From positions 186,001-250,000 of the forward strand of contig NZ_JAUOTP010000003.1 in the NCBI RefSeq assembly GCF_030546695.1: a DNA stretch of 64,000 nt. Direction: 5' to 3'. Source of the stretch: Sphingomonas natans. Its GTDB lineage: Bacteria; Pseudomonadota; Alphaproteobacteria; Sphingomonadales; Sphingomonadaceae. Numbering within the stretch: the stretch's first letter is position 1; the number at the start of each line of letters is the position of its first letter. The notes under the pieces are model-generated. The model searched no databases, was not told the origin of the DNA, and saw only the letters and a list, made by a program, of their open reading frames with translations. Shown here one piece after another: positions 46,078 through 53,000 of this stretch. A program made the position numbers and the translations under genes.

Positions 46078-46332
46078 TTAGTCAGCCAAGGGGCTCTGGG
46101 TCGCCGTAACAGTCGTCACTAAGCGATAGTTCGCAATCCGCGTTCCCCGTGGATCTTCAACCATGATCGCAAGATGGATCGAGCTTCGGCCCTGTCGAAT
46201 TTCATCGGCAACGACGTCGGCCAGCACATGTCGCGCATGGACCTCGACGGCCGCGGTATCAGGGAGGTCCTTTCCGTCCTCGTCCTGCAGATAAAAAGTA
46301 TCGTTTAGAACGTGGAATCGGAAACGGGGCAT
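46078..46332 (-). CDS. DUF6894-like small protein (84 aa)
   Basis: From ATG at 46332 the protein begins MPRFRFHVLNDTFYLQDEDG, the typical DUF6894 opening of an aromatic-alternating strand followed by D-D/E-G. It ends in a second beta unit. It is related in pattern to the gene at 48926. Such proteins are numerous in sphingomonads and rhizobia; the function is unknown. Confidence 0.65.
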   Translation of the reverse strand: MPRFRFHVLNDTFYLQDEDGKDLPDTAAVEVHARHVLADVVADEIRQGRSSIHLAIMVEDPRGTRIANYRLVTTVTATQSPLAD

Positions 46333-46727
46333 CAACGCATCTTGCGTATAACATTACTGCATCGCAACAACATGGATTAGCGTGGTCTGAGTGGCGGCGA
46401 GCGCCTCACGCGGGTGAGCTGATCGTCCGCGGTTGAAAAGCCATAGACCACATCCCCAAAGTGGTGCGACCTGTTTGTAGATCCTGTCGACGATTACTGG
46501 TCGACGACGATGCGGAACACCTTCAGCCCGTACGCAGAAGCGAAGATGCACCTTCCGTTACGAGTCCGGATCGAAGCGATGAAATCTCGCGCTTGCTATT
46601 GCCCCAGAACGCCAGTCTCACCCGGATCGCGTCCTGCACGGCGTTCTCGTTTGACGATCGCCCTTCCGCGCTCGAGCGCCTCAACACAGCGACGCAATAG
46701 CGCACCGGGCTTTGGGGGCGGGGGCCT
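46333..46727. other. Intergenic region without a supported gene
   Basis: Short frames on both strands lack motifs; a 65-codon minus-strand frame at 46354-46551 could be a small protein but has no supporting feature. Confidence 0.3.
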
Positions 46728-48755: not shown

Positions 48756-49105
48756 ATTAGCAAATAATTGTGCTCGGAAAGCATGGACATCCCGCCAGAC
48801 CGCTTCCAGTTCTATTAGAGGGATCAATGCCTTGAGCGGGCCGTTCATAAGGCATTGCTGGCCATCTTTTTCGGGCGCTGGCAACCGAGAGTGCCTTTGC
48901 TCCCGCCCCGATCGCAGGAGCCCGCGTGGCCCGATATTTTTTTCACGTACAGACCGACGTTCGCTCTACCGATCTCGAAGGGTGGGAGTTCGACACGCCC
49001 ATCGAGGCGCGGAGCCAAGCGATCGCCACTTGTGGCCAAATGATGAGAGATGCCGCTGAAGCTTTTTGGGGAAGTCGACCGTGGAGCGTGTCGGTGACCA
49101 ATGCG
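48756..49105. repeat. Inverted duplicate of 12255-12531
   Basis: This segment holds the intact DUF6894-type gene start and about 170 bp of its upstream region. Its reverse complement matches 12255-12531, where about 60 bp are deleted. The conserved upstream part has no shared reading frame and may be regulatory. Confidence 0.7.
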
Positions 49106-49174
49106 GTGGGTCTCATTCTCTGGGAGCTATCGATGGACGGATATGCGGCACCAGCGGCCTTAGATATTGCGTAG
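48926..49174 (+). CDS. DUF6894-like protein (82 aa)
   Basis: Starting at GTG 48926, the protein opens with the family strand MARYFFHVQTDVRSTDLEGW, followed by helices (EARSQAIATCGQMMRDAAEA) and a C-terminal strand WSVSVTNAVGLILWEL. This is the standard small DUF6894 layout. A degraded copy lies inverted at 12.2 kb. The function is unknown. Confidence 0.7.
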   Translation: MARYFFHVQTDVRSTDLEGWEFDTPIEARSQAIATCGQMMRDAAEAFWGSRPWSVSVTNAVGLILWELSMDGYAAPAALDIA

Positions 49175-49414: not shown

Positions 49415-49718
49415 TCCCCGGTGAGTATGGCGAAGAGAGGCGCCAGCCGTCCACTCAAACGCCGACCGGGTCGGCTATCGGCGTTCATGACCGGCGCAAG
49501 TTTTAGCGCCGGCCCGGCGATCGGAGGCGAGCAGCCTTCTTAGCGACGCCATCTTAACGAGACGACGGCGGCGATATTTATAGTCTAAAACCTGGAGGCA
49601 AGCGCGCGGACGCAACCATGTCTTCGGAGAGGTATTATTGTGGCGTAACCAGCTAAGACGCGCATGACCAATACCGAGCCCGCCGGACGCCGTCTGCCGC
49701 GTTCAGGCGACCGCTCCT
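49415..49718. other. Intergenic region, nothing recognised
   Basis: No gene, repeat or clear regulatory site was seen. Confidence 0.4.
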
Positions 49719-50105
49719 ATGGCGGACGCGCCAGCGCCGTCGATCGTCGTCTCAGCGTCCGAACGGATCAAGCCTGCCTCGACCAAGGAGGTGTTCGGGC
49801 GCGGACTGCTACTAATTTTCGGCGAGATGGTTCAGCTGGTGCTTGCCTTCGTCCTCGCGCTCTTCGCGCTGGCATGCTGTGCAGCGCTGGCGGTCAAAGC
49901 GAACGATGCTCTTCATTTCATGGGCGAGAAGTTTGTAATCCCGCGCGTCATTACAGATGCGCTCAGCGGACTGCTGGCTCATTCCCCGACCTATCTGGTC
50001 GTCTGCGTGCTCGGCGCTATCTTCGCGATCAAGCTGGTCGATCTGATCCTTCGTGTGCTGCAGCGTCGAGCCCGGCTGGCAGAGATCGGATATTCTCCAG
50101 CCTAG
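49719..50105 (+). CDS. Two-span membrane protein (128 aa)
   Basis: After a polar N-terminus the protein has two long hydrophobic helices, LIFGEMVQLVLAFVLALFAL with ACCAALAV (about 33-58) and TYLVVCVLGAIFAIKLVDLILRVL (about 91-114), ending in a basic tail. No family was recognised. It is probably an inner-membrane protein. Confidence 0.55.
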   Translation: MADAPAPSIVVSASERIKPASTKEVFGRGLLLIFGEMVQLVLAFVLALFALACCAALAVKANDALHFMGEKFVIPRVITDALSGLLAHSPTYLVVCVLGAIFAIKLVDLILRVLQRRARLAEIGYSPA

Positions 50106-51456: not shown

Positions 51457-51614
51457 GCGCCACTCATGCAAACCGCCCATGTCAAAGCCAAGGTCGGGCT
51501 CGAAGATGTTGGCCGCCCAAACCGGCAGGCAGTCACAGCGGTGAAACCCCGCCAACATTGACCATCCGCGGATTGCCCAGCAATCGAATCCACCATGATC
51601 TTGCATCGCGTACG

Positions 51615-52780
51615 GTGACCATCGAGAGAATCAGCCTGTCGTTCGCGCGGCGAATCGCGCTGGCCGCTCAGGGTTCGGGATCGCACGTCCGGAGAGGCCG
51701 GGCATTCTTCACATCAGGCGCGCACTGGACAGGCTTCACCTTTTCCAGATCGACAGCGTCAACGTCCTGTCACGCGCCCATTATCTCCCGGCCTTCTCCC
51801 GGCTCGGGTCGTATGATCGCACCGATCTTGATCGACTCGCCTGGGGAAAGAAGCGCGAGCGGAAGCTCTTCGAGTATTGGGCGCACGAAGCCTCGCTCCT
51901 GCCATATGATTTTCATCGCCTTCTCCGCTGGCGGATGGCGCAGGCTGATCGTGGCGAAGCTGGGTGGAGCGGCATGCGTGTGTTCGCCATCGAGCGTCGT
52001 CCCGAGGCAATGACCGTCCTCGATCGGATCCGAATCGGCGGGCCGATGGCGGCAGCCGATTTCGAGGCGCACAAAGGCCAATCGGGCTGGTGGGAATGGA
52101 GCGACACAAAGCGCGCGCTGGAGTGGCTGTTTTGGGCGGGGCACATCACCACCGCTACACGCCGCGGCGGCTTCGAGCGCGTCTATGATCTCGCGGAAAG
52201 GGTGATCCCTGCCGACGTGTTGGCCCAGCCCACGCCCTTCGCAGGTGATGCGCATCGGGCGCTGATCGAGCGCGCCGCGGCAGCACATGGCATCGCGACG
52301 AGCGGCGAACTGCGCGACTATTTTCGCCTGTCGCCCGATGAAGCGCGGCCGGCGATCCAGGCTCTGGCTGAGGAAGGCATCCTCATCCCGGTCGATGTAC
52401 CGGGTTGGCGCCATGCCTGGCTCCATCACGCAGCGAGCCGACCTCGCAAGATCGAAGCGCGGGCGCTGTTGGCGCCGTTCGACCCACTAATCTGGGAGCG
52501 CGATCGGACCGAACGTCTGTTCGGCTTTCACTACCGGATCGAGATCTATGTTCCCGCCGACAAGCGGCGATTCGGCTATTACGTGCTTCCCTTCCTGCTC
52601 GACGAGCAGATCGTCGCGCGGGTCGATCTCAAAGCCGACCGGAGGGCTTCGCGGCTAATCGTCCAGTCGATACACTTCCAGCCTGACGCGCCTGATCATG
52701 CAGGCGTCGCGCTGGAGGCTGAGCTGGGGGATATGGCCGTCTGGCTTGGCCTCGACGGATGGTCGAACGCGACCGGTTGA
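51615..52780 (+). pseudogene. ycaQ: YcaQ-family DNA glycosylase, frameshifted near the N-terminus
   Basis: YcaQ is a winged-helix glycosylase that unhooks DNA crosslinks. The start at GTG 51615 gives ERISLSFARRIALAAQG and then leaves register near 51673, where one base appears missing. The next frame gives RRALDRLHLFQIDSVNVLSR, RAHYLPAFSRLGSYDR, the catalytic-type segment QSGWWEWSDTKRALEWLFWA and a normal end at 52780. From ATG 51935 a truncated protein of 281 residues could be made, but it would lack the QxD-containing N-terminal domain (FQIDSVNVLSRAHY). Real decay or a sequencing error is possible. Confidence 0.78.
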
Positions 52781-52950
52781 GATTCGTCGACCGACCCTCT
52801 ATGGCCCAGGTCCCGATGGCCGTATTAGGCGGATCAAATTGCGAACCGATCAACCCTGCGATCCGGCTGCGACCCGTGAAGCAGAACAAACCATGTCCCT
52901 CGGAAGCGCCCCGGAATAAATATTCTGTCGTTCTTTCAATTACTTAGAGG

Positions 52951-53000
52951 TGGTGGAGCCGTGGGGGATCGAACCCCAGACCTTCGCAATGCCATTGCGC
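52951..53000 (-). tRNA. tRNA-Ala(GGC) 3' fragment, possible attachment-site scar
   Basis: Read on the minus strand, this 50-nt stretch ends in GGCTCCACCA and has a perfect T-arm (TGGGG, loop TTCGATC, CCCCA), a variable loop AGGTC and an anticodon loop ATGGCAT with anticodon GGC. Upstream of 53000 the sequence does not match a D-arm or 5' acceptor. It is a partial tRNA gene, of the length that integrative elements leave at their att sites. Confidence 0.65.

Follow-up and report, generated by a model that had tools for sequence, protein, structure and literature searches.

We analysed 64,000 nt of Sphingomonas natans DNA (hereafter the window), which correspond to bases 186001-250000 of contig C7 (641,879 bases) in a genome assembly of 4.56 Mb and 13 contigs. 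Near position 53,000, the window contains the 3' half of a tRNA-Ala(GGC) gene, and the 5' edge of this half is fused to a decayed SRAP gene, a junction that is newly described here. On its other side the half is followed by 170 bases which precede a ycaQ/AlkZ-like gene. The coordinates of these features and of the loci with which they are compared below are given in Table 1.

Table 1. Features of the tRNA-Ala locus and of compared loci; positions are those of the window unless another contig or locus is named.
Feature	Position	Strand	Remarks
ycaQ/AlkZ-like gene, frameshift near 51668-51680	51609-52780	+	PF06224, E 1.2e-53 on the open part; two frames
170 bases after CCA	52781-52950	.	possibly the end of a lost element
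3' half of tRNA-Ala(GGC), nt 28-76 including CCA	52951-52999	-	98% over 52 nt to the intact gene
Anticodon loop ATGGCAT (nt 32-38), putative crossover region	52989-52995	-	base 31 SRAP-like; base 37 onward tRNA
Common join CGCAATGGC	52991-52999	-	found natively in related SRAP loci; identical to tRNA nt 28-36 at 8 of 9 bases
5' part of decayed SRAP gene, about 93 codons	52991-53269	-	homologue: PF02586
RepA_C, ParA, SopB-like ParB and XerC/D-like tyrosine recombinase in a row	L013:1765-8690 (C7:251765-258690)		
Intact tRNA-Ala(GGC) with tyrosine integrase ORF	L226:12484-14157		ORF ends 20 bases from the tRNA 3' end
Displaced tRNA-Ala half from nt 28	L227:6984-9057		phage genes left, TonB-receptor gene right; no intact tRNA

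The tRNA half spans 49 bases on the minus strand, from C28 at window position 52999 to A76, the final base of CCA, at 52951. With a query of 64 nt, the fragment matched the intact tRNA-Ala(GGC) gene at C5:59332-59407 with 98% identity over 52 bases (E 1.6e-19), and it also matched tRNA-Ala(CGC) on C6 (88% over 48 nt). Base 31 is the sole mismatch to the GGC gene of the same genome (A in the fragment, G in the intact gene); bases 32-76 are identical, as are the three bases past CCA. The initial annotation had described a fragment that runs from the anticodon arm to CCA without the 5' half, and this description is borne out. The extent that it gave, 52951-53000, is correct to one base: base 27 is mismatched, so the half begins at nt 28 and ends in the window at 52999. 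The intact copy with the same 3' sequence, on which its proposal of an integration scar depended, is the gene on C5. Fragment and intact gene thus lie on different contigs (C7 and C5). ARAGORN found no tRNA in the window and Rfam gave nothing at the gathering threshold, as expected because only half a gene is present; the 5' half of tRNA-Ala is absent from the window.

The fragment was matched at E 1e-12 or better in 70 of 397 genomes of the family, the own genome included. Among the listed matches, all except that in the own genome align from base 28 or later, and the 5' side is matched in the own genome alone. Consequently no listed match from the other family genomes shows the fragment with its present 5' neighbour, a distribution that is compatible with the proposed scar. 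At the 3' side, a query of 232 bases was compared with 59 genomes (the own and its relatives), and only the own match passes base 66. Matches of the fragment to phage records were weak (24 records, best E 2e-4).

The SRAP gene, which we take to be of the YedK/HMCES type, is a remnant with one frameshift and one in-frame stop. Its translation shares 63% of 87 aligned residues with the homologue in the relative G017 and 54% of 84 with that in G004. The remnant reaches the conserved ARKxQW block and then turns into tRNA: at the join the SRAP codons read CG-CAA-TGG-C, and CGCxATGGC also corresponds to tRNA nt 28-36. In a comparison of 30 related SRAP loci (31 rows, since L134 and L248 are one place), CGCAATGGC was native in five, all of them among the 14 loci with 70% amino acid identity or more, and CGCAGTGGC was present in three. 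The own intact tRNA has CGCGATGGC at nt 28-36 and thus starts with CGCG. At base 31 the fragment has the letter of SRAP instead of that of the own tRNA, which places the switch from one parent to the other in the anticodon loop; since both parents can be inferred from relatives, a landing at this site would be readable to within this loop. It is possible, judging from the tRNA sequences, that base 31 came from a donor tRNA with A31 instead of from SRAP; some tRNAs of relatives carry A31, although those examined differ at two later positions. With the ancestral site on C7 reconstructed from the SRAP genes of relatives, the SRAP and tRNA parents were probably alike at the join. Such likeness is expected of the core site of an integrase, and it is equally expected of repair by microhomology.

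We then asked how closely the SRAP genes resemble the 17-bp arm TCGCG-ATGGCAT-TGCGA of the tRNA gene. Among the 14 close SRAP loci, the best-matching local 17-mer has six mismatches in four loci, seven in five and eight to ten in the other five. The frequency per position, calculated for those loci or for the window, is 0.0014-0.0015 for six or fewer mismatches and approximately 0.006 for seven or fewer; as the score is the best of 14 offsets, with this free register six or fewer mismatches are expected by chance nearer to 2%. Both marks of a secondary integration site, a target like the att core and a switch in the crossover region, were found, with six to seven mismatches of 17 in nine of the 14 close loci. 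The SRAP 3' part, which would indicate the second junction, was sought in the own genome and not found. The matches at C7:612571, C9:352416, C9:351931 and C12:88041 turned out to be other SRAP copies, the last of which is itself broken, and a weak likeness at C7:306807 (E 0.04) was inspected and left out of the count.

On the left side of the half, the 170 bases after CCA gave no phage match at E 1, one plasmid match of 27 bases, nothing significant elsewhere in the own genome and nothing in 59 relatives at E 1e-5. They could possibly represent the end of a lost element. The ycaQ/AlkZ-like gene behind them is a neighbour whose membership in the event is not supported. In a tree of 32 sequences it falls into a clade of 12 rows (support 100/99), with G017 outside. 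Members of this clade come from Sphingobium, Novosphingobium, Jiella and Brevundimonas, and one of them is a 'chromosome C2' gene of Sphingomonas sp. IC081; this range suggests that ycaQ genes of the window type may have spread horizontally.

The G017 genome is of interest, since there an intact tRNA-Ala(GGC) is followed, 1.25 kb downstream, by a ycaQ-like gene, the order being that of the window (L089:7448-10175). This is the only such arrangement among the loci examined: tRNA-Ala was found near ycaQ in none of the first 22 of 80 named loci (flanks of 4 kb or less), and among ten further ycaQ loci (1.5-kb flanks) in that of G017 alone. The other 11 members of the clade of the window gene have no tRNA-Ala in the flanks examined, and DUF938, the other neighbour, was beside ycaQ in none of 28 loci checked. 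Because the clade excludes G017, the flanks examined at the other loci contain no tRNA-Ala and DUF938 does not adjoin ycaQ in the loci checked, the capture of a chromosome segment with both ycaQ and the tRNA was judged unlikely. By these sequence comparisons the gene order in G017 is probably unrelated to that of the window; among the individual facts, it weighs most heavily against the reading that we prefer below.

Contig C7 is probably a megaplasmid, as judged by the lack of tRNA genes and by a RepA-ParA-ParB module. The genome has 42 detected tRNA genes and none of them is located on C7, for which, at an even spread of tRNAs by length, we calculate a chance of approximately 0.002. Some 13 kb rightward of the half, Pfam revealed RepA_C (PF04796) with adjacent ParA and SopB-like ParB, a known type of sphingomonad plasmid, and the RepA is 81-86% identical to RepAs of pSWIT02, pNL1 and other sphingomonad plasmids (23 listed records). 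The genes in this row (Table 1) make up the module for replication and partition of a probable sphingomonad megaplasmid. A terminal overlap, as a sign of a closed circle, was sought, and the ends of C7 do not overlap. On a contig free of tRNA genes, a tRNA half is improbable as an ordinary end of an island. The idea that the fragment belongs to the backbone of RepA plasmids was rejected, as the 42 plasmid records matching the fragment and the 40 listed RepA records (of 908 with a match) have no accession in common. The best plasmid match to the fragment was Sphingomonas parapaucimobilis CP155757, at four places. This record (NZ_CP155757.1, L130-L132) is labelled plasmid unnamed8 and carries aroA, cmk, rpsA, nadA and leuCD besides the four tRNA-Ala-like places; by its gene content it looks like chromosomal DNA and not like a plasmid.

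To these data we add the distribution of integrases, searched genome-wide with PF00589 only. This profile gave 12 matches in the genome, none of them in the window and none beside tRNA-Ala within the flanks examined. The nearest match on C7 lies 19 kb to the right of the fragment, beside the plasmid repA/parAB genes, and that nearest to the intact tRNA-Ala(GGC) on C5 is 86 kb away. An integrase gene next to the intact tRNA, as anticipated in the initial annotation, was therefore not seen with this profile. Two of the own integrases, L020 (C10:61209) and L022 (C6:561113), adjoin tRNA-Lys(CTT) and tRNA-Glu(TTC), respectively, and these loci are likely true islands. Within the window, 40 ORFs from a list of 79 were scanned with Pfam and seven with PHROGs, in overlapping choices, and none of them was an integration or phage gene.

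Viral contigs (IMG/VR) scanned for the exact 3' half yielded two prophage-like stretches, L226 and L227. The L226 integrase reaches PF00589 exactly at the cut-off and matches a PHROG integrase with E 6.4e-24. Together the two stretches indicate that elements use the 3' end of tRNA-Ala(GGC), in agreement with the earlier assumption that integrases target this part of the gene, and the 5' limit at nt 28 is repeated in the one displaced half seen. At E 1e-20, relatives of the L226 integrase are absent from the own genome and present in seven of 397 family genomes. At six of these seven loci the stretch examined contains a tRNA, which is Thr-CGT, Arg-CCG or Ala-CGC and in no case Ala-GGC, so the element could not be named by its integrase. 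The relatives (L230-L236) appear to be a family that switches tRNA targets. When the L226 integrase was searched in viral contigs, its own contig alone was returned. A literature search on Sphingomonas prophage integration at tRNA-Ala, made for that combination alone, found nothing.

Our preferred reading, to which we attribute about an even chance, is that an integrase inserted an element at a secondary, tRNA-like place on a plasmid and that the fragment is what remains of this event. What we observe are the 5' part of SRAP, the half of the tRNA gene, the join common to both, an agreement with the tRNA gene that ends three bases past CCA, and elements elsewhere that use this tRNA; from them we infer that an integrase rather than a chance join was at work. 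A mobile element which normally resides in the anticodon arm of the chromosomal tRNA-Ala(GGC) would have carried nt 32-76 in its attP. Either in the present host or in one that harboured the plasmid before, the tyrosine integrase of the element would have used a look-alike site in the SRAP gene, consisting of CGCAATGGC and its flanks and resembling the 17-bp arm. By crossover in the loop, the tRNA 3' half would have become attached to the 5' part of SRAP, the element extending leftward from 52950; the element and the integrase, as well as the 3' part of SRAP, would have been lost later. The end of the half at the 3' end of the gene, with no chromosomal flank in 59 relatives, fits a half borne by attP.

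The initial annotation had interpreted the fragment as one end of a genomic island lying to one side among small, decayed genes. Its first element stands insofar as tRNA-directed integration is the likely source of the half, but there is no island bracketed by tRNA and fragment. The location proposed for the island must be given up, since the decayed DNA on the right is the truncated SRAP gene fused to the half; on the preferred reading it is more likely that the SRAP side is the target and that the element lay to the left. The half looks like the trace of an everyday type of event at an uncommon location. Indeed, tRNA-gene fragments left by integration are described as common in prokaryotes in the accessible part of one report (PMC9897764).

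Against insertion at a secondary site are the missing second junction, the absence of an L226-like integrase from the own genome at E 1e-20 and the absence of integration or phage genes from the scanned ORFs. To these come the eight to ten mismatches in five of the close SRAP loci, the free register of the 17-mer score and the weakness of the matches in phage records. As neither a second junction nor an integrase was found, the join could also have arisen without an integrase, by microhomology (CGCxATGGC) repair of a break in the decaying SRAP gene to tRNA-Ala DNA. The parents agree at eight of nine bases of the join, and SRAP and the adjoining ycaQ are both broken, which means that the region decays freely. 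However, such a repair leaves unexplained why the agreement stops three bases past CCA, with no recognisable chromosomal flank in 59 relatives, and why the break fell in the anticodon loop, the place where anticodon-type integrases cross over according to the available text of PMC4383910. We regard this origin as possible, yet doubtful. A different course would be that of a classical island end: the half was displaced from tRNA-Ala(GGC) and then rearranged with its flank onto C7. In that case the island would end on the SRAP side, and the ycaQ side would represent the former flank on the chromosome. This course is unlikely in our view, despite the displaced half from nt 28 in L227 and the matching order in G017, with its ycaQ-like gene 1.25 kb downstream of tRNA-Ala(GGC). 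It would require an attP inside the SRAP gene; the 12-row clade of the window ycaQ (100/99) excludes G017, and its other 11 members have no tRNA-Ala in their flanks; furthermore, intact gene and fragment are on separate contigs.

Since the fragment extends almost precisely from loop to CCA, we also considered capture of RNA, in which a tRNA would have been cleaved in the anticodon loop and its 3' half copied into DNA and joined to the broken SRAP gene. The three bases after CCA, however, match the own gene and are absent from the mature RNA, an agreement with a chance of about 1/64 by our own estimate, and CCA itself is encoded in the gene and is thus no sign of RNA. We consider this origin barely conceivable.

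Insertion of an element at a secondary site, as preferred here, can be compared with known systems. Among Islander islands, a 3' fragment is present in 3760 of 3919 and an anticodon-centred site in 2083, as far as the accessible part of that publication goes (PMC4383910). Like them, the half in the window starts in the anticodon arm and is cognate to an intact gene. Measured against the filters described in the same part, the window differs in that fragment and intact gene are on different contigs, which are unjoined in the assembly and of which C7 looks like a plasmid, instead of on one replicon at the proper side and orientation, that no integrase lies between fragment and gene and no bounded island exists, and that the fragment overlaps a protein domain with the join inside the SRAP frame; each of these three would be screened out by an Islander filter. 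Another parallel is ICEBs1, for which the available portion of PMC3715440 reports that crossover takes place in a spacer of 7 bp within a 17-bp site, itself located in a tRNA gene, and that secondary sites differ from it at 2-12 of 17 positions. As at those secondary sites, a protein gene in the window is joined at a 17-bp stem-loop-like site with a 7-bp crossover region, and the six to seven mismatches of 17 are within the ICEBs1 range. The window differs from what is reported there in that one junction remains, with neither element nor integrase found, and in its probable plasmid site.

Plasmid pPDL2 of Sphingobium fuliginis is likewise a sphingomonad plasmid with an attP that matches the 3' end of a tRNA gene, as stated in the part of PMC3516476 available to us. 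According to the same text it is 37 kb in size, uses a seryl tRNA gene, has its own integrase and was shown to recombine, whereas the window fragment has no linked integrase. In L226 and L227, tRNA-Ala(GGC) is involved as in the window, and the L227 half also starts at nt 28. Unlike the window, L227 has another tRNA variant (TCAGGGG ... CCCCCTCGG), and there is no further sequence in common with L226 or L227.

Halves of tRNA genes are commonly read as island boundaries; the case described here suggests an off-target landing on a plasmid instead. It would contribute a natural case to what is known to us chiefly from laboratory studies, among them those of ICEBs1. By analogy, the 49-bp half might also serve as a usable attP-like site on the megaplasmid, which we consider highly improbable. 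Since its loop and 3' arm are identical to the chromosomal tRNA-Ala(GGC), an L226-type integrase could fuse C7 with the chromosome there; if true, the replicon of the 642-kb contig would be conditionally integrative, as pPDL2 is on a small scale.

Further features of the window are a sugar-use cluster at 16012-41482, which comprises genes for a melibiase-like protein, a TonB receptor, an MGH1-like glycoside hydrolase, a GH130 phosphorylase, PhyH and regulators, and two DUF6894 genes on opposite strands, 2.6 kb apart (46078-46335 and 48926-49174). The sequence at 49609-50095 has an inverted copy with 71% identity at C7:261576-262062, 12 kb past the end of the window.
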